Shown here: piece after piece, positions 9,093 to 46,136 of the stretch
Numbering within the stretch: position 1 is the first letter of the stretch
How the letters are laid out: each line of letters starts with the position of its first letter
Origin: a virus
Strand: one strand, 5' to 3'
Virus record (IMG/VR): IMGVR_UViG_3300020195_000045
Span: 1 to 46,136 of that record
DNA: 46,136 nt
Made by a program: the position numbers and the translations under genes
The notes under the pieces: generated by a model
Told to the model about the DNA's origin: nothing
The model's input: only the letters and a program-made list of their open reading frames with translations
The model's database searches: none

Positions 9093-9332
9093 TTACAACT
9101 GTGCGTCGTGTTTCGCAACGGCGGCGCGGCACTCTTTGCGCCAACTGTCGAGGTGCGAGCCGAGCATTGCCATGTCGCCGTGTGTAGTGGCACGGGCAAC
9201 AAAGCCGCTGAGTTTCGCACACTGCTCTTTCCGGGCGCTTGTCGGGAGCTGCTTAATCAGGTTGATCAGCGCCATGAGCAGCTTGACGACGCTCGGCAGG
9301 ATCTCGATCAGCATGATTAGCCAGGTCGCCAT
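9093..9332 (-). CDS. Small membrane-anchored protein after the protease
   Basis: 79 residues. The N terminus is a hydrophobic or amphipathic helix (MATWLIMLIEILPSVVKLLMALINLI) followed by a soluble, basic helical tail with two Cys. Its ATG overlaps the protease stop (TGATG), so the two are made together. It could anchor or modulate the protease, or be a holin-like peptide; neither is shown. No family recognised. Confidence 0.6.
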   Translation of the reverse strand: MATWLIMLIEILPSVVKLLMALINLIKQLPTSARKEQCAKLSGFVARATTHGDMAMLGSHLDSWRKECRAAVAKHDAQL

Positions 9333-10240
9333 CAGTTACCCGTCAAGCATGAGCGCAGTGCGGTTGCTGCGCCGTGCATCTGGGCGTTGGCGGCGCCCAT
9401 GGCCCCGTTGGCACTCATGACAGCGTTGAGCTGGCTGTCACAGTCCGGAGGAACCGGCTGCGGGTCCGGATCGGGGCCGGGGTTGCTACCGCCGCGACAA
9501 GGACCGGAGCCAGGAAAGCCGCAGATGGTTGTGCTGTTGTCGGTCTGCCACTTGGCGAACCAGTCGCGCGCGACCTTCGTAGTCACTGAGCTGAGATACG
9601 ACGTAGTGGAAATGTTGCCGCGCGAGTTGACGCCAAAAACTTCGCGCGAGCCGTCCGCGTTGACGAGGAACGCGGGACCGCCGGAGTCGCCGTAGCAGAG
9701 TGCGGCGCCGCCCTTCGTCACGACATCGTTGTCCCTGGTGGGACAGCTCACCACCGTTGACTTGCCGATCCGGTAGACGCCGTCATTGCCGCCACCGCCA
9801 CCGTTCCTGACGCAGCCGTAGCCGGTGAGTGTGACTTCGACGTCTTTCGCGCACCAAGCGCCGTCCTGGGCGACGACTTCGGGAACCGCGCCTTCGATCT
9901 TACGCGTTGACTTGCAGAGAGCCCAATCAGCGGTCGAGTCTTGGCGGTACTTCGGGTGGTGCGTGCATTTCGCCGTGTAGTTGGCAGAGAGCAGCGAGAA
10001 GGTGATGTCCTTCCCGTTGGCCACGCAATGCGCGGCGATCAGGACGACGTCCTTACCAACGATGGTTGCCGAGCAGGCCGAGCCGTTGGCGCGAGCGTAG
10101 ACGCTCGCCGGCCAATCCTCGGGCTTAGCAGGCACGCCGCCGATCAGAGTCGGCCCCCACCGCTCCGGCGCCTCGTCAGCGGTCGCGATGCCCGGCAAGC
10201 TCGCGCTCGCCATTGCTAGACACAAAAGAAGCTTCCGCAT
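9332..10240 (-). CDS. Secreted trypsin-like serine protease (S1 family)
   Basis: 302 residues from ATG 10240 with GGGGGAA upstream. A Sec signal peptide (MRKLLLCLAMASASLPGIATA) precedes the start of a chymotrypsin fold (LIGGVPAKPEDWPASV). The catalytic triad is complete: AAHC gives His71, STADWALC Asp105, CYGDSGGPA Ser186. Several Cys could form disulfides, which fits export. After the domain comes a Pro/Gly linker (GGSNPGPDPDPQPVPP) and a 40-residue helical tail. Export of an S1 protease is very unusual for a phage. Targets could be envelope proteins, competing phages or host prey. It belongs to a four-gene minus island. Confidence 0.9.
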   Translation of the reverse strand: MRKLLLCLAMASASLPGIATADEAPERWGPTLIGGVPAKPEDWPASVYARANGSACSATIVGKDVVLIAAHCVANGKDITFSLLSANYTAKCTHHPKYRQDSTADWALCKSTRKIEGAVPEVVAQDGAWCAKDVEVTLTGYGCVRNGGGGGNDGVYRIGKSTVVSCPTRDNDVVTKGGAALCYGDSGGPAFLVNADGSREVFGVNSRGNISTTSYLSSVTTKVARDWFAKWQTDNSTTICGFPGSGPCRGGSNPGPDPDPQPVPPDCDSQLNAVMSANGAMGAANAQMHGAATALRSCLTGN

Positions 10241-10279
10241 GCCAATTTCCCCCAATATTTGTATGTCATAAACCATAGA

Positions 10280-38939: not shown

Positions 38940-39830
38940 TTACGGCGTGACGGTCGTGATGATTTCGACGGTGCGGTAGTTGGCAGCGTCGATCTTCGCG
39001 TGGAACGACTTGACGGCGTACCACTGCGTGCCGGCGACGACCCACTCACGCATGAGGATGTCGTAGTCGTCTTCGACATCCATGTCCACCTTCACGCAGA
39101 CGCCGTAAGGCTCAGCGGTGTGGATGAACGCGCGGTAAGCGTCAACGCCGTCGATGTCCGCGTTCTGTGGCACGGTGTCCACGACGACGATGGCCATGCC
39201 GAGGATGCGTCCGACGAAGCCCTTGACCATGGCCATCGGGTCATTGGCGTCGGCCTTCAGGAAGCCGGCGGTGGTGTCGTTCACCAGGTCAAGGTACTGG
39301 AGGGAGTGCATGTAGCAAACCTGGGCCTCGTCGGCGCGGTCGCCGAGCCCAACGATGCGTGCCTTGTTGAGCGTCCGCACGTTCATCGTGTGGAGATCGT
39401 CAGTAGCCGTGTAGCCGTTGACGAAGTTCCCGGCGGTCCCGAACTCAGTGACGAGATCGCGGTCCACTTTCTCGGCGTGAACGCGACCGATCTGGCCTTG
39501 CGCTTCCTGCTGAAGACGCTCGGCAGAGGCAGCGCTCTTGATGAACGCCTTCTTCTTGATGCCGACAGCCTTCGCGACTTCCTTGACGGTCGCCGAGAAG
39601 CTGTTGTCGGAGAGGTTATCGACGCTCAGACCTTCCGTCTCAAGTGGCTCTTCCGCATCGCCGATCTTGGTGAAGTACGGGAAATTGATCGTCTCGCCCG
39701 GCTGCGCGGCAAGCGTGCGGTCGATGACAGCCATCGCGCCGAACACAAGCTTGTGGTCGAAGTACGCCGAGATGTGATCTTTCCAGACCTTCGGGGCAAA
39801 GTTCCAGTCAGTCGAAGCGGTCGCGCCCAT
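38940..39830 (-). CDS. Major capsid protein (HK97-fold, N4 gp56-like)
   Basis: 296 residues, AAGGAG seven bases upstream of the ATG. WNFAPKVWKDHISAYFDHKL, GETINFPYFTKIGDAEEPLE and VKEVAKAVGIKKKAFIKSAA follow the phage N4 gp56-type pattern (the V.iPy...G.a..l.Eg.....l......vtv...gka..itd motif). It lacks the long delta domain, since a separate scaffold is present upstream. It makes the icosahedral shell. Confidence 0.88.
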   Translation of the reverse strand: MGATASTDWNFAPKVWKDHISAYFDHKLVFGAMAVIDRTLAAQPGETINFPYFTKIGDAEEPLETEGLSVDNLSDNSFSATVKEVAKAVGIKKKAFIKSAASAERLQQEAQGQIGRVHAEKVDRDLVTEFGTAGNFVNGYTATDDLHTMNVRTLNKARIVGLGDRADEAQVCYMHSLQYLDLVNDTTAGFLKADANDPMAMVKGFVGRILGMAIVVVDTVPQNADIDGVDAYRAFIHTAEPYGVCVKVDMDVEDDYDILMREWVVAGTQWYAVKSFHAKIDAANYRTVEIITTVTP

Positions 39831-39856: not shown

Positions 39857-40600
39857 TTAAACCAACATCCGCTTTGACTTGGCCTCTGCGTGCAGAGCCT
39901 CGTACACAGCCGGTTGCTTGGTGTAGAGCGTGGATTTCTCGGACATCGTCATCTTGCAGAACTGCTCTAGCGTCACTGCGCCCTTGTCGCCGTCTGGCTT
40001 CTTGTCGCCGTCTCCGTCGCCGGTCACGCTGGTCTTCGTCTTCTTGGTGGTGATGCCGCCACCCTTCGCTTGAGCTTCAGAGACGATGGCCGCCATGGCT
40101 TCGTCGTCCAGCTCTTCCCCGTCTTCGAGTCCCTCGACGGCTTTGCTTACAAGGTACTCAAAGTATTCGTAACCGCCCTTGCCGATGCCATTCTCGATGG
40201 CCACGGAGAGACAAGCATTCCGGAATGCGAGCGCGCTGTTACCAGCTTCAAGCTGGCTGACACGCTCTTCCGGGGTTTCGGTCTCTTCATCTCCACCTGC
40301 GAGCTTCTTGAGTCGATCGTTGATGGCTGCTAGGTCTTGCTCAGACTTGTTTGCCTTGGTGCGATACTTCGCGTTCTCTTTGCGAATATCTTTGATGTGC
40401 TTCTGGACGCTTTCCGGGAGTGTGGCCAGGTCGATAACGTCCTTGCCGTCTTCCTTCTTCTCGTCTTTGCCACCCGCACCACCGCCACCTTTGCCACCGT
40501 CTTCGGTGTCGTCGGTCTTGGTATCGTCGTCACTCTGCTCACCAGGAGCTTCGTTGTCGGTGTTGCCAGAACCCGACTTGCTTTCGACCTTACCTGCCAT
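39857..40600 (-). CDS. Scaffold protein
   Basis: 247 residues. Very acidic and Gly-rich N-terminal 60 residues (NTDNEAPGEQSDDDTKTDDT, GGKGGGGAGGKDEKKED). A coiled-coil segment follows (VQKHIKDIRKENAKYRTKAN), then a helical C-terminal half ending in basic HAEAKSKRMLV. This is the usual plan for capsid scaffolds, and the gene directly precedes the major capsid gene. No protease motif is visible, so removal is by exit or by a host or other protease. Confidence 0.85.
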   Translation of the reverse strand: MAGKVESKSGSGNTDNEAPGEQSDDDTKTDDTEDGGKGGGGAGGKDEKKEDGKDVIDLATLPESVQKHIKDIRKENAKYRTKANKSEQDLAAINDRLKKLAGGDEETETPEERVSQLEAGNSALAFRNACLSVAIENGIGKGGYEYFEYLVSKAVEGLEDGEELDDEAMAAIVSEAQAKGGGITTKKTKTSVTGDGDGDKKPDGDKGAVTLEQFCKMTMSEKSTLYTKQPAVYEALHAEAKSKRMLV

Positions 40601-40730: not shown

Positions 40731-41615
40731 TTAGCGGCGCTGCCAGGAAGGGTGGTACGGGAGAAGGATGGCGCGGTCGTTCGGGCGGTCTGGCGGTGTC
40801 ATGAACGTGCGCTTGTAGGATTTGCCCGTGGGCTTACCGCTCTTGTCACGCGGTTGCCATGTGTAGACGAAGGGCTCGTCCACCTTCGGGCGCAGGTTGA
40901 GCGTTGCCGCATACGCGGAGTCATCGCCCGTGCGGTGGTCGCGTGGGTGATAGAGCGTCTTCCTGATTGCGTCGTCCTGCTCTTCGATGCGCTCTAGTCC
41001 GTTGAGCTTGGCAATGCCGTACATGTTGTGCAGCTCCGTGCGGACGATGCGGCGCAGTCGCCAAGCTTCGCCCTCAAAGAAGCGCCCAAGCGTATCCTTC
41101 TCAAGCATCTGGCGGTGGATCTCTTCGGATGGTAGTCGCTGGATGATCATGTCTTGCAGACCGCTAGCAATCGTGCGGCGCAGCGCCTGGCCATACGTAT
41201 CAAGCGATATCTGGTAGCGGTTGATCAGAAGATTCTTGGCGTCGGTCGCGGCGACGTTCAAGTCTACGCTGGCGAGCTGAAGCGAACCCTTGAAGTAGTC
41301 GTTATAGGCGTTCACTTCGTCGCGAAGATCGGAGATACCCTGATCAGCCAGGAGGGAAGCGCCAAAGTCTGTCTCTTCTGCAAGTTCCTTCTCGAAGGTG
41401 ATCAGTGACACTTCGAGCTGTAAGAGGGTGACGCGAAGCTGCTGCGCGGTGAATGAATCCGTTGGTAAATTGCGAAGGCGTTGACGCATCACAGCAGCTA
41501 CGCGCTGGTAGACGCGCAGAAGCTTCTCGGCTTGGCGGTTCTCCAGCTCAAGCACGTTCCTGGCGTGGTCCTCCGCTACGTCAAGCGCGTCGATCTCTTC
41601 GTGGAAGATGCTCAC
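40731..41615 (-). CDS. MuF-like minor head protein
   Basis: 294 residues. The N-terminal two-thirds is helical (EEIDALDVAEDHARNVLELE and others). The C-terminal RLRRIVRTELHNMYGIAKLN plus KTLYHPRDHRTGDDSAYAAT matches the SPP1 gp7 / Mu F head-morphogenesis domain (R.i.rTE....n......h....D.Rt...). It begins with GTG at 41615 without a good ribosome site. A nine-codon mini-frame (MALGTIKS) from the previous gene ends on it (GTGA), so reinitiation is likely. Confidence 0.88.
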   Translation of the reverse strand: MSIFHEEIDALDVAEDHARNVLELENRQAEKLLRVYQRVAAVMRQRLRNLPTDSFTAQQLRVTLLQLEVSLITFEKELAEETDFGASLLADQGISDLRDEVNAYNDYFKGSLQLASVDLNVAATDAKNLLINRYQISLDTYGQALRRTIASGLQDMIIQRLPSEEIHRQMLEKDTLGRFFEGEAWRLRRIVRTELHNMYGIAKLNGLERIEEQDDAIRKTLYHPRDHRTGDDSAYAATLNLRPKVDEPFVYTWQPRDKSGKPTGKSYKRTFMTPPDRPNDRAILLPYHPSWQRR

Positions 41616-41637: not shown

Positions 41638-42117
41638 TCAATCACCCTTCAGGAGGTTCGTGAGCTTCGACACCTTGCTACCTTTGGTCGCGGCCTTGAG
41701 CGCGGCGCTGCTCCGATGCATCTTCCCCAGGAAAGCGAGCTTCTTCGCTGCGAGTGCAAATCCGACAGTCATCGCGCCGCCGGCTACCTCGTCCCAATGG
41801 TCGTTGAACTCAATGCCCATAGCCTTGGGTAGTGCCGAGCCGAGCACGCCCGCGACGAGCAAGTGCGTCTTGCCGGAAATGAGCGCGGCCTTGTAGTTGG
41901 GCATTCCCTTTGCCAGCCGGAAGATGCTGGCCTTCCTGAGCCTCGGAGTCGCCGCGACCATCCCGCCCGGAGGAACAAAGCGCCCGGCAGCGTAGGCGCT
42001 ACCAGCGAAAACACTGAGCGCGCCAAAGCCCTTCACCTTGTCGCTCGTCGAGCTGGACGTGCGGCGGATCGGGATGATGCGGCCACGGATGCGGCGGAAC
42101 CCTATGACTTCGCTCAC
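41638..42117 (-). CDS. RGRIxPI-family membrane-like protein 4
   Basis: 159 residues; GTG 42117 has GGAGG six bases upstream. IGFRRIRGRIIPIRRTSSST begins the protein with the shared motif. Two hydrophobic Gly/Ala-rich stretches (FGALSVFAGSAYAAGRF, and HLLVAGVLGSALPKAMG) follow, then AGGAMTVGFALAAKKLAFLG and a basic C terminus (KAATKGSKVSKLTNLLKGD). It is the last of four adjacent genes with this layout, just before the MuF-like gene. They may be ejected head proteins that act on membranes; no known family recognised. Confidence 0.7.
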   Translation of the reverse strand: MSEVIGFRRIRGRIIPIRRTSSSTSDKVKGFGALSVFAGSAYAAGRFVPPGGMVAATPRLRKASIFRLAKGMPNYKAALISGKTHLLVAGVLGSALPKAMGIEFNDHWDEVAGGAMTVGFALAAKKLAFLGKMHRSSAALKAATKGSKVSKLTNLLKGD

Positions 42118-42128
42118 GCTCGCCTCCC

Positions 42129-42719
42129 TCAGATGTCTTTCAGCTTCCATGGGAACTTACCACCGCGCAGGCCCCACTTCTCGAACCGCTTCCCGTAGCG
42201 CATGTACCCGTAGGCGCCGGCAGCGAGCACGGCGAGCTTGAGCGGATCAGAGCGACCACCGGCGGCGCCCGCCGACGCGAAGCGCGCGCCTTCGTCAGCC
42301 GCCGTGCCCCGGTCCATCCTCGCGACCTGTGTACCGATCAGCGCACCAACGCCGTACTTGCTCGCGAACTTGGTGAGCTTCGCGGCGCGGTTGAGGAGTC
42401 CGCCGACACGCGCTACCTTCGCGCCCTCGACCATCATCAGCGGCTTGCCCGCTGCGGTCATGACGGTGTTGTGGAAGGCAGACCGTTTAAACATCGCCTG
42501 GCTATGTCGCTCCAAGCGGCCGGCGGCAAAGAGTCCGCCAAGGCCCACGCCCACGAGTCCGGCGATACTGGCGAGTGCGCCCGTGCGGATGCCCGAGCTG
42601 GCGAGCCCCTGCACGGCGCGCGCTTCCCGCTGCGCCCCTTGCTTGAGGCGCACCGGGACAATGCGGCCTCGGATGCGACGGAAGACGGTGCGGTCTGACT
42701 GCGGTTGGCTGGCCATCAT
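42129..42719 (-). CDS. RGRIxPI-family membrane-like protein 3
   Basis: 196 residues, start overlapping the upstream stop (ATGA). TVFRRIRGRIVPVRLKQG begins near residue 11. LASIAGLVGVGLGGLFAAGR is a Gly-rich hydrophobic segment, and a helical, basic part (AMFKRSAFHNTVMTAAGKPL) with further hydrophobic stretches follows. Its middle codons MFKR carry a GTTTAAAC copy. Same plan as its three neighbours. Confidence 0.7.
   Translation of the reverse strand: MMASQPQSDRTVFRRIRGRIVPVRLKQGAQREARAVQGLASSGIRTGALASIAGLVGVGLGGLFAAGRLERHSQAMFKRSAFHNTVMTAAGKPLMMVEGAKVARVGGLLNRAAKLTKFASKYGVGALIGTQVARMDRGTAADEGARFASAGAAGGRSDPLKLAVLAAGAYGYMRYGKRFEKWGLRGGKFPWKLKDI
42485..42492. repeat. GTTTAAAC palindrome, copy 13
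   Basis: In frame inside RGRIxPI gene 3; the only copy whose 3' flank is not G. Confidence 0.95.
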
Positions 42720-43216
42720 TCGCCCCCAAGGATGTCTTTACCAAATTGGCTTTCCATTTCAAGCCGAGTGCCGATCGAAGTGGCCAAGAGGCCCATGCCG
42801 GCGGCGAGGAGACCAAGCTTTCCGGGATTCCTGACCACGGTGCGGACGGTCTTGAAACTGGCGCGGGCCAGGAAGCCGCCGACCTTGTGCGGAATGGTTG
42901 CCTTGGTGCGCGGAACCATGCGCCAGATCTTCGCGGCGCCCTTCGACGCTACGCGCATGCTGCTGCGCGGCAACGCGGCGCTAACAGCCTTCGCGGCCTT
43001 CGTGCGCTTGATCGCAGTCGCGGCGGCGGCGGCTGCGAGAGCTGCGGCGCCAGCCATCGTCAACGTTTGGCCGGTGGCGGTGACGCCTTGGCCTACGCGT
43101 TTCTTGTTGACAATGGGAATGATCCGCCCGTTGATACGACGGAACCGCACCACCGGATTGGTGAACTGGCGTTCCTCAACAACGCTGTATTCCCGCGACT
43201 CACCAATGATGCTCAT
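42716..43216 (-). CDS. RGRIxPI-family membrane-like protein 2
   Basis: 166 residues. VVRFRRINGRIIPIVNKKRV sits at residues 22-41 after an acidic start. TLTMAGAAALAAAAAATAIK is a strongly hydrophobic Ala segment, and LGLLAAGMGLLATSIGTRLE closes with a second one. The part between is basic (RTKATIPHKVGGFLARASFK). Start GGAG-like site with a GTTTAAAC palindrome upstream. Same plan as neighbours. Confidence 0.7.
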   Translation of the reverse strand: MSIIGESREYSVVEERQFTNPVVRFRRINGRIIPIVNKKRVGQGVTATGQTLTMAGAAALAAAAAATAIKRTKAAKAVSAALPRSSMRVASKGAAKIWRMVPRTKATIPHKVGGFLARASFKTVRTVVRNPGKLGLLAAGMGLLATSIGTRLEMESQFGKDILGGE

Positions 43217-43226
43217 GGCACGCTCC

Positions 43227-43234
43227 GTTTAAAC
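43227..43234. repeat. GTTTAAAC palindrome, copy 14
   Basis: CGTTTAAACG containing the TAA stop of RGRIxPI gene 1 and 10 bases before the gene 2 start. Confidence 0.95.
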
Positions 43235-43600
43235 GCTGCTGCCCTTCTTCTTTTTACCCCGGAAGCCGGCGGCATGCGCGCCAGCTCCGATACCCATGCC
43301 GACCAAACCGCCGATTGCGGCGTTGACAGCGGTGCCCAGGCCGAGCCCCAGCGCCACGCCCACCACGGCGCCGACCTTGTTGCGTTTAAACGCGTTCTTG
43401 AATGTGCTGCGCCCTGTCTGGCTCAATCCACTGACAATACCGCCGGCAGCACCCATGGTGGCGCCGAGCTTACTACCAACGTTGCCACCGCGAGACGCGG
43501 ACTCACCAACGGTGCGCTGCTTGCGCTCGCCGCCGCCCTTCTTACCACGGATCGGAACGATGCGCCCACGAACCCGCATGAAACGAACGCCTTCGCTCAT
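43229..43600 (-). CDS. RGRIxPI-family membrane-like protein 1
   Basis: 123 residues from ATG 43600. MSEGVRFMRVRGRIVPIRGK opens with the shared motif. The rest is Gly/Ala-rich: GATMGAAGGIVSGLSQTGRS and VGAVVGVALGLGLGTAVNAA, then AIGGLVGMGIGAGAHAAGF, a glycine-zipper pattern seen in membrane-inserting or pore-forming peptides. The end is basic (RGKKKKGSS). First of four tandem relatives between portal and MuF-like genes. A GTTTAAAC copy encodes its FK in NAFKRNK. Confidence 0.7.
   Translation of the reverse strand: MSEGVRFMRVRGRIVPIRGKKGGGERKQRTVGESASRGGNVGSKLGATMGAAGGIVSGLSQTGRSTFKNAFKRNKVGAVVGVALGLGLGTAVNAAIGGLVGMGIGAGAHAAGFRGKKKKGSSV
43384..43391. repeat. GTTTAAAC palindrome, copy 15
   Basis: In frame inside RGRIxPI gene 1. 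Confidence 0.95.
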
Positions 43601-43663
43601 TTTAGAATGCTCCGAAAGGGTTGATAGTTGACGCATACCGTTTCATGCGGGTACACATAGCCC

Positions 43664-44092
43664 ATGAATTACAAACATGGTCATAAGTGCGCAAATGGCG
43701 CGTCGAAACTCTACCGTGTGCATCATAACATCGCGCAGCGCTGTACAAGGCACCACTGCCCCGCCTGGCGAGACTATGGGGGACGCGGCATAACTATTCA
43801 TAAAAGCTGGTTGGACTTCGCGACCTTCGCAGCGGAGATACCGGCTTGCCCAGGTCCTGACTTCACCCTTGAGCGCATCGACAACAATCTTGGTTACCAG
43901 CCGGGCAACATTCGTTGGGCAACCCGCATGGAGCAGGCTAACAACAAACGAAACAACCGTGTAATCACATACAACGGGAAAAGCCAGAGCCTTGCGCTTT
44001 GGGCGCGCGAACTCGGTATCAACTACAACACTTTGAAATCGCGTATAAACCAAGCGCATAAATCTCCCGAAGAAGCTTTCATAGTGTCCTAA
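43664..44092 (+). CDS. HNH endonuclease, probably selfish, inserted beside the portal gene
   Basis: 142 residues on the strand opposite to all structural neighbours. YRVHHNIAQRCTRHHCPAWR, DYGGRGITIHKSW, FTLERIDNNLGYQPGNIRWAT, and EQANNKRNNR form the usual phage HNH fingerprint (DYGGRGI..., LeRiDN..gYep.NiRWat..eQ..Nkr.N). A C-terminal segment (KSQSLALWARELGINYNTLK) is the helix-turn-helix often attached. Stop overlaps the portal stop. It could be a homing endonuclease or aid packaging, as HNH proteins beside terminases can do. Confidence 0.88.
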   Translation: MNYKHGHKCANGASKLYRVHHNIAQRCTRHHCPAWRDYGGRGITIHKSWLDFATFAAEIPACPGPDFTLERIDNNLGYQPGNIRWATRMEQANNKRNNRVITYNGKSQSLALWARELGINYNTLKSRINQAHKSPEEAFIVS

Positions 44093-45585
44093 AAAGCCCC
44101 GAACGGATTTAAAACTGGTTGCGCGGCGAGCTTCGCCTTCTCTTCCTCGATGTTCTCAATCCCGAAGTCTGCCGCCAGCCAAAGCATCATAGTCTCACGA
44201 CTGACGAGCGTAGCGTTGGCGACCTGGACGGCAACACCGACCTTTTTCTGTAGGTCTTCCATCGTCATAGCGAAGATAGGTGGCCAGGAAACCGAGAGAT
44301 CCATGCTCTGTGGTTGCCAGCCGGGCGGCATCGTAACTACTTCGTTCTCGCTGCGACCGTTGAGGATCAGGAGCGTTACCGCCATCTTCGTCAGAAGGGA
44401 CGAAAGGATCTTCTCCACCATGGGGCGCAGCTCTGTCACAAGGTCAACAAGCGGCCCGTGCAACACTTCCATGGCCTTCGCGCTCTGCGCCGAGCCAACG
44501 ATCTTCTCAGGGTCGAGCATTACAACGCGCGCGATCTCTGCGATGCTACGCTGCATCCTGTCGCGAAGGTCGCCCGCGCGCTCAACGCCGCTCAGATCGG
44601 CCTCGACGAACTTAGCTTCACCCTCGCGCCCCAGGTTCCATGCCTTGGTGGACGACTTGACGAGTGAATCAATCTCGTCCACATCCATTCCAGCGATGGC
44701 AAGCTGCGGCTCTTGCGCGTAGGCAACGGCTTGGTCACTCTGTGACAGCGAGTAGTTGATGGAGTCAATGAAGCAGCGAACGCCTTCGTCACCGATCAGC
44801 GACTCACCATCCGGAGAGTGCTTGTCTTCCGTCGTGCGGAACCACTCACCTTGGACGAAGCCGAGCGCATGATCGGCGCGGCTGACTTCCGTAAAAACAG
44901 GAAGGGCGCCGCTTGGCTCAAAGTCCGGGTTGTCATAGAGGATATCGGTCTGCTGACTGAGCAGCATCCGGAACCACTTGTCACGAGGCCGGCCACGCTC
45001 GTCGATGTCCTGTGGGTCGGAGTAGACGTATCGGATCTCCACTTCCGTCAGCTCGCCGGCATCGTCGAACGCGGGGTAACAATGCTTGGCGTTGTACTGC
45101 TCCATGCGAAGAGCGGCGCCAGTGACGAAGAACCGCACGAAGTGCGCGCCCATGCCAAGCATCCGACGTACCGCATAGACACCATGCGTCTGCAAGTTGG
45201 CTGCCTTCGCCACAAGCTTGAAGAACATTTCGGTGTCCGGATCGTCTTCCACGCGGAACTGCGGAAACGTCTGCTCACCAACAAGCTTCGACGCCACGCG
45301 CTCGCAGAGCGTCTTGGCGAAGTTGTAGACGATGCGAGGCTTGCGCTTCCTGATCGGGATGTAGGTGTCCGCATCGCCCGCGTCCCAATCCATTAGATGA
45401 TCGTACTGCGTCCCGCTCAGATACTTGTCGAGCAAGTCTAGATCTTCCGTGCGGTAGCGCCGGAAGCGCCCCAGCGCGCCGCCGTGGACGACGCCAAGCT
45501 TGCTGTCGATGCGCTGCTGCGTGCGAGACTTCCCGGTCAGGCCGCGCTTGCTGTCCATGTTGCGCTTCAGCGACTCTAATGCCAT
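44089..45585 (-). CDS. Portal protein
   Basis: 498 residues. The start overlaps the terminase stop (TAATG). The SPP1/phi29-like portal features are ADTYIPIRKRKPRIVYNFAK, NAKHCYPAFDDAGELTEVEI, IRYVYSDPQDID, and the helical stem region with LVKSSTKAWNLGREGEAKFV and EIARVVMLDPEKIVG. The protein forms the dodecameric ring through which DNA enters and leaves, and joins terminase to the tail. Length is typical for the SPP1 gp6 group. Confidence 0.92.
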   Translation of the reverse strand: MALESLKRNMDSKRGLTGKSRTQQRIDSKLGVVHGGALGRFRRYRTEDLDLLDKYLSGTQYDHLMDWDAGDADTYIPIRKRKPRIVYNFAKTLCERVASKLVGEQTFPQFRVEDDPDTEMFFKLVAKAANLQTHGVYAVRRMLGMGAHFVRFFVTGAALRMEQYNAKHCYPAFDDAGELTEVEIRYVYSDPQDIDERGRPRDKWFRMLLSQQTDILYDNPDFEPSGALPVFTEVSRADHALGFVQGEWFRTTEDKHSPDGESLIGDEGVRCFIDSINYSLSQSDQAVAYAQEPQLAIAGMDVDEIDSLVKSSTKAWNLGREGEAKFVEADLSGVERAGDLRDRMQRSIAEIARVVMLDPEKIVGSAQSAKAMEVLHGPLVDLVTELRPMVEKILSSLLTKMAVTLLILNGRSENEVVTMPPGWQPQSMDLSVSWPPIFAMTMEDLQKKVGVAVQVANATLVSRETMMLWLAADFGIENIEEEKAKLAAQPVLNPFGAF

Positions 45586-46136
45586 TACCTACCCCGCTGT
45601 GCTTGGATCGACAAACCGCCCATTTGGTAACGTCCGTTTGCCAGTGACCATAGCATTTCTAGGGCATCAGGCCCGTCGTCGTGCTCCCCTAGGGGGAATG
45701 TTTCCATTTGGTTTTTAAATTCGCCGGAGAGAGCCTTGTTAAATAGTATATACCCGTTCTCCACTTTTGGCTCTAGGGTGTAAATCCGCTTGATCTTGTT
45801 ATCGACGTTCACGACATCATAGAACTTGATATTAATTCCCCAGCTCGGCACCTTGTTCCGGCGCCGTTCCTTCTCGCGCTCTTTCTTCGCCGTCTCGATG
45901 TTCGGGAGCAGCAGGTCGCGGTACAGGTTCGTCTCCACCGCCAGCTTCTCAGTCCCGAACCGCTCGTGCAGGTCGAAGATCGCGGCAATCCACTTCGTGG
46001 GTGGCGCCCGCTTCGTCCAGTCGTGGTGGACGAAGAGCCTCCCCTTAGCATCGGTGTAGCCGGTGAGGAGTGAAGAGAAGTCGCCAAGCTTCCCGCTCTT
46101 TGCCTTAGTCTGGCCGGTTGCGGGGTCGAGCGCGCC
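45585..46136 (-). CDS. terL: Terminase large subunit, C-terminal nuclease part
   Basis: Continuation of the gene at the other contig end; its first 42 codons duplicate the overlap at 134-9. It carries the nuclease domain: HHDWTKRAPPTKWIAAIFDL, then LAVETNLYRDLLLPNIETAK with the second acidic residue, and LGEHDDGPDALEML with the third Asp pair. The basic tail ends RGR. Intact residues at all three nuclease positions indicate a working headful or site-cutting nuclease. Confidence 0.93.
   Translation of the reverse strand, partial: GALDPATGQTKAKSGKLGDFSSLLTGYTDAKGRLFVHHDWTKRAPPTKWIAAIFDLHERFGTEKLAVETNLYRDLLLPNIETAKKEREKERRRNKVPSWGINIKFYDVVNVDNKIKRIYTLEPKVENGYILFNKALSGEFKNQMETFPLGEHDDGPDALEMLWSLANGRYQMGGLSIQAQRGR
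46011..46136. repeat. Terminal direct repeat, right copy
   Basis: Exact copy of 9-134; see the left copy. The true circular unit is about 46002 bp. Confidence 0.9.

Follow-up and report, generated by a model that had tools for sequence, protein, structure and literature searches.

The viral record IMGVR_UViG_3300020195_000045, analysed here over its whole length of 46,136 nucleotides (the window), encodes four adjacent proteins, P1 to P4, that share a short motif near the N terminus, [VI]xF[RIV]RxxGR[IV][IV]P[IV][RK], which we call the tag. We consider it likely, from sequence comparison, that the tag is a head-loading signal for ejected proteins and that P1-P4 make up a cassette of cargo in a contractile-tailed phage. 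A wider proposal, which we favour with somewhat less confidence, is that this is a previously undescribed bi-terminal beta-hairpin tag with which a whole contractile clade loads its heads with an exchangeable cassette of single-domain effectors and membrane proteins for injection, as though polyvalent proteins had been unbundled. The genes occupy minus-strand open reading frames (ORFs) at 41638-43600 between the portal and MuF-like genes, just as a sequence-only reading of the window had reported.

A terminal tag confined to head genes

The tag was found again in more than 60 IMG/VR contigs, all from one clade of uncultivated contractile-tailed phages, which bears out the motif search that the sequence-only reading had suggested. 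Its regular expression matches 187 times in 908,014 residues, where shuffled ORFs give 0.2 on average; this count covers the ORFs of the window and of 58 loci partly chosen through the motif. Because of that selection, the distribution over gene slots was counted anew for genes of at least 60 residues in loci picked by alignment of the portal protein and not by the motif. The recount is approximate, since the gene caller was greedy and purpose-made and some contigs occur twice among the 80 loci. In the interval from portal to MuF, 182 of the 223 genes carry the tag; the corresponding figures are 21 of 42 from the connector to the neck genes and 20 of 45 from terL to portal. Outside these slots it marks 11 of 380 genes, ten of which are clear tags beside head genes where the bordering head gene is cut off or unlabelled, while the last, in a primase-like ORF, matches by chance; none of 58 genes on the opposite strand is tagged. 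Across whole records the matches are confined to the head region. A strict motif scan of the window yields no copy beyond those of P1-P4, and a scan with the tag profile places the tag on no labelled structural gene.

Among 148 tagged proteins the motif is N-terminal in 127 and C-terminal in 17, and lies 16-18 residues from the C end in 4; an independent second set comprises 74 N-terminal, 12 C-terminal and no internal cases after removal of one primase false positive. The median distance of an N-terminal tag from the protein start is 8 residues, C-terminal tags end 2-18 residues (mostly 3-4) from the stop, and several proteins are tagged at both ends. The N-terminal placement first noticed is therefore true of all four window proteins, and in the clade the tag is C-terminal as well. 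In the GNAT family, members are N-tagged in contigs L045 and L054 and C-tagged in L024 and L040; since these are related by sequence, the tag evidently moves between protein ends. As far as sequence comparison can tell, such placement is the behaviour of a portable sorting signal, unlike that of a domain of fixed architecture.

The tag spans 13-15 residues (hydrophobic-F-x-R-x-[NRG]-G-R-[IV]-[IV]-P-[IV]-[RK]), and 133 distinct instances give the pattern [VIM]-[RKVI]-F-[RIV]-[RK]-[IKV]-[RNGKH]-G-[RK]-[IV]-[IV]-P-[IVM]-[RK]. Positions -1, +1 and +3 covary tightly, and all but 4 instances belong to one of two subtypes. In the first (64 cases), -1 and +3 are hydrophobic and +1 is R; in the second (63 cases), -1 is basic, +1 is hydrophobic and +3 is either K/R or hydrophobic. 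Subtype does not correlate with genome (p 0.44), both occurring within single genomes; the second is strongly enriched in the connector-neck slot (26/29 versus 73/170; Fisher p 1.6e-6). Within genomes, tag codons are 78% identical at their first two positions and 39% identical at the third. Because the synonymous positions vary to this extent, the codon comparison indicates that selection acts on the tag peptide, and a DNA-level repeat or recombination site is ruled out.

The tag is predicted to be a beta-hairpin, in line with the call for structure prediction of the N-terminal region. AlphaFold2 models the P3 tag as strands 11-16 and 19-24 at low confidence (pLDDT about 50-60), and in a dual-tagged family of ten members both tags form hairpins, with pLDDT of about 88 at the N-terminal and about 66 at the C-terminal one. 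Foldseek with the dual-tag model gave no significant match. Searches of Pfam, PHROGs and NCBIfam returned no family shared across the tagged proteins, and a PDB search gave no match at E 10. The absence of a named family for the motif was thus correctly anticipated, a known domain is ruled out as its identity, and no match to a domain of unrelated function was found. For isolated phages, a tblastn search of 50,697 phage records with the tag produced nothing convincing, the query being so short that sensitivity is near its limit. None of seven tag strings was found in print, and only the T4 and phage P1 systems emerged from the literature as comparable signals.

Cargo bodies and the proposed loading

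With the tag masked, BLASTP at E 1e-3 divides 139 tagged proteins into 79 body clusters, and the bodies vary widely between close relatives. The proteins are small (median 170 residues), and all carry net positive charge, +0.154 per residue versus -0.024 in structural controls; a membrane-like segment occurs in 60% of them versus 14% of those controls. The idea of one shared targeting tag on variable head-associated bodies accordingly gains from the terminal placement at either end, the restriction to the head block and the exchangeable bodies. That these bodies are membrane-active agrees with the frequent membrane-like segments and does not describe all of them, since enzymes are tagged too.

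Two tagged proteins contain ART-PolyVal, a polyvalent effector domain, in L024 (E 2.6e-14, 54.6 bits) and L110 (E 1.6e-17, 65.0 bits), both above the curated cut-off of 31.2; a Pfam scan finds this domain in none of P1-P4. GNAT acetyltransferase bodies match with a best E of 3.1e-7. HExxH bodies occur in L021, L051, L085 and L121, with a Tox-MPTase4 match of E 0.0026 for L085, and a kinase-like pair comprises L139 and L014 (Kinase-PolyVal E 0.007 for L139, under the curated cut-off). Phages are known, or predicted, to inject enzymes of these kinds, which also agrees with a targeting tag on ejected proteins. Two further tagged proteins, at L129:4662-5702 and L045:4422-5318, resemble ATP-grasp enzymes on visual inspection (L129 has VDINPNPGT), and L129 has sub-threshold Pfam matches to ATP-grasp at E 0.07-0.1.

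P3 belongs to a large tagged family with three hydrophobic segments, a member of which immediately precedes MuF in 42 of 55 loci. The outer limits of this family are uncertain, because its members are Gly/Ala-rich and 3 reversed sequences also match at E <1e-3. P1 and P4 have no relatives outside a near-identical copy in L002, whereas P2 has relatives, including a further one recognised by eye in L016. The statement that the four proteins look unrelated outside the motif is therefore mostly right, with P3 and P2 as departures from it. The glycine-zipper stretch ascribed to P1 fares less well: the protein is Gly-rich, and its match to the glycine-zipper 2TM families (PF13441, PF05433) reaches 12.3 bits and E 0.14, under the cut-off of 28.9. 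We read P1 from the ATG at 43600, in front of which stands a Shine-Dalgarno-like stretch (GGAG), and regard the longer ORF that reaches 43636 as the less probable choice; for P4, the Shine-Dalgarno-like GGGAGG suggests the GTG at 42117. Coordinates are collected in Table 1.

Table 1. Tagged proteins, their tags and the surrounding head genes in the window
Feature	Position	Strand	Remarks
P1, 123 aa, tagged, Gly-rich, two hydrophobic segments	43229..43600	-	ATG 43600 after GGAG
Tag of P1, VRFMRVRGRIVPIR	43547..43588	-	
P2, 166 aa, tagged	42716..43216	-	relatives in L011, L030
Tag of P2, VRFRRINGRIIPI	43112..43150	-	
P3, 196 aa, tagged; widespread MuF-proximal three-segment membrane family	42129..42719	-	family match E 6.1e-20
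Tag of P3, TVFRRIRGRIVPVR	42648..42689	-	predicted beta-hairpin (model)
P4, 159 aa, tagged, hydrophobic segments	41638..42117	-	GTG 42117; 170 aa if ATG 42150
Tag of P4, IGFRRIRGRIIPIR	42064..42105	-	
Portal protein (SPP1 gp6-like), upstream slot border	44089..45585	-	PF05133 E 2.3e-13; phrog_64 E 3.9e-14
MuF-like minor head protein, downstream slot border	40731..41615	-	window copy weak alone; clade matches
Scaffold-like protein, candidate tag receptor	39857..40600	-	phrog_4866 head scaffolding, weak, E 0.0044; position
Major capsid protein, candidate tag receptor	38940..39830	-	phrog_544 E 3.5e-36
HNH endonuclease gene in slot, opposite strand, untagged	43664..44092	+	phrog_3377 E 3.5e-42

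We propose that a tag at one terminus would bind a component of the assembling procapsid, i.e. the portal, MuF, the scaffold or the inner capsid face, and that this binding would draw unrelated basic proteins into the head ahead of DNA packaging. During infection the cargo would exit through the tail together with the DNA. Membrane-type cargo (P3, and probably P1, P2 and P4) may then integrate into the host membrane or disturb it, perhaps aiding DNA entry, and in related phages the tagged ADP-ribosyltransferase, acetyltransferase, metalloprotease-like and kinase-like enzymes may act on host targets or defences. If so, the tag would be a sequence handle for spotting injected phage proteins in metagenomes, with each tagged ORF in the clade, most of them unannotated, a candidate ejected protein. 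It would also represent a head-loading signal usable at either protein end, useful for protein delivery into bacteria, and would show phages swapping counter-defence cargo through attachment of a 14-residue peptide.

Several observations weigh against head loading for ejection. The AlphaFold2 alignments are shallow (5 and 10 sequences), basic cargo is also compatible with DNA binding, and the clade is known here from uncultivated sequence alone. Roughly half of the genes in the connector-neck and terL-portal slots lack a tag, and in 7 of 76 portal-chosen loci the slot contains no tag; in at least 2 of these 7, L006 and L090, the MuF-proximal protein bears another N-terminal stretch.

The alternative that survives best, though we give it only a small chance, is that the tag loads the head and the proteins stay there undelivered, as an internal core or as portal-associated structural parts. 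The head-module location, the basic charge and the conserved membrane-type protein before MuF would suit such a role, but ART, GNAT and HExxH enzyme bodies would serve no obvious purpose in a head, and the wide variation of bodies between close relatives also speaks against it. Slightly less probable is a basic hairpin that binds DNA or nucleoprotein, so that the proteins coat the phage DNA or ride in with it. The strongly basic character of tag and bodies would fit this; however, a packaging motor should clear the DNA of bound proteins, the tag is restricted to head-gene slots, and the invariant F, G and P together with the paired hydrophobic residues point to a surface that binds protein.

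We regard as improbable that the tag binds a host component late in infection, the proteins being membrane-active or host-takeover factors (in lysis or superinfection exclusion) that never enter the virion. The frequent membrane-like segments would agree with this, as would the lysins that share the slot in a few contigs. These lysin-like CHAP and SLT genes (L123:1616-2731, L099:10615-11334), however, sit untagged among the tagged genes and, together with other slot genes that lack the tag (those for secreted proteins and the window's HNH gene), are an internal negative control; moreover, no tagged genes were found near tail, baseplate, tube, tape-measure or early genes. Least probable of all, with very little credence, is loading into the tail-tube lumen in the manner of extracellular contractile injection systems: a contractile tail (sheath phrog_279, E 3.3e-24) and the second slot between connector and neck genes would accord with it, but the main slot runs from portal to MuF, away from the tube and tape-measure genes, and the leader peptides of those systems are N-terminal.

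Comparison with known loading systems

Head loading for ejection is the most likely reading because Alt of T4 is the closest counterpart of the tagged ADP-ribosyltransferases and the polyvalent proteins are the closest counterpart of the cargo list. In T4, the capsid targeting sequence (CTS) is a short terminal sequence common to the diverse basic, injected internal proteins IPI-III and Alt (PMC3012670, PMC5512222), and Alt is an injected ADP-ribosyltransferase (PMC5512222). Both systems thus combine a conserved short terminal tag with variable basic bodies and have an ADP-ribosyltransferase among their cargo; as with the CTS, one short sequence stands terminally on unrelated bodies encoded by late head-block genes. 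The CTS is an N-terminal sequence removed by the prohead protease. C-terminal tags of the present kind would need another cut, and no prohead protease was recognised by Pfam and PHROGs scans in the interval from portal to major capsid protein (MCP) of the window. The present tag is a putative GR/P hairpin found at either terminus, which sets it apart from the CTS, to which it is probably unrelated in sequence, and the scaffold and capsid type here is SPP1-like, unlike T4.

For DarB of phage P1, about 30 N-terminal residues are enough to have a foreign protein packaged in the head (PMC9024508). That signal is N-terminal and was shown for one large antirestriction protein, whereas the present tag can be C-terminal and marks up to six adjacent small proteins. 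By analogy, the tag system most likely works like those of T4 and phage P1, and we claim homology to neither. Polyvalent proteins carry effector domains, are encoded beside portal and MuF genes and are predicted to be packaged (Iyer et al. 2017; PMC5512222). ART-PolyVal and the weak Kinase-PolyVal and metallopeptidase matches beside portal and MuF recall them, with the difference that the domains are separate small tagged proteins here and parts of one long multidomain chain there. The P22 ejection proteins are described as head-internal and as forming a membrane conduit (PMC8402733). A conduit role of this kind, as for P22 gp7/gp16/gp20 and T7 gp14/gp15/gp16, is what we propose for the membrane-type tagged proteins, the P22 and T7 proteins being larger and belonging to short-tailed phages. 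Those ejection proteins are not known to share a tag. Cargo-loading peptides of encapsulins are likewise short and terminal, and bring enzymes of unrelated kinds inside an HK97-fold shell; encapsulins are host nanocompartments without ejection.

Genome context and minor observations

The ends of the window are identical over 126 bases (9-134 = 46011-46136), and because of this overlap we judge the sequence to be circularly permuted and probably a complete genome of about 46.0 kb. The terminase large subunit gene is split by the window ends. Besides the sheath gene, the window contains tape measure and baseplate genes. The clade keeps the order terL-portal-cargo-MuF-scaffold-MCP-connectors-cargo-neck-sheath, and every member has portal, MuF, scaffold and capsid protein. 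For the MuF-like proteins of 31 clade members, phrog_1657 (head morphogenesis) gives 24 matches and phrog_115 (minor head protein) gives 18, with a best E of 1.8e-13. A trypsin-family protease gene (PF00089, E 4.5e-19) is located at 9332-10276 on the minus strand.

Against isolate phages, tblastn with the portal protein detects no more than two, both of them Komagataeibacter phages and both at 25% identity. Scanning prophages in about 85,000 genomes for the tag gave one contig, L059 (JAFCCX010000028.1), which is filed in a Pacearchaeota metagenome-assembled genome and is identical to the IMG/VR viral contig L013; it is either a misbinned virus or a weak host hint.

In the near-identical phage L002 (6501-6720), window bases 43626-44033, most of the HNH gene, are missing. 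The codons for NPFGAF at the C terminus of the portal protein are repeated just 5' of P1 (HNH region 43603-44092, the portal-P1 interval), as if the HNH gene had inserted into the portal gene at its 3' end, duplicating that end.

The other N-terminal stretch mentioned above, GSRGGHIIxxTxxGxPVYG, opens the MuF-proximal protein in L006, its near-identical contig L012, and L090. In the form GEGSRGGH[IV][IV]GHTKSGKPIY it is found at L006 4270-4971 and L090 4111-4686 and in L148-L168. The GSRGGH stretch, possibly another cargo or processing module, is N-terminal in the tag clade; unrelated phage contigs carry it mostly in the interior of large proteins.
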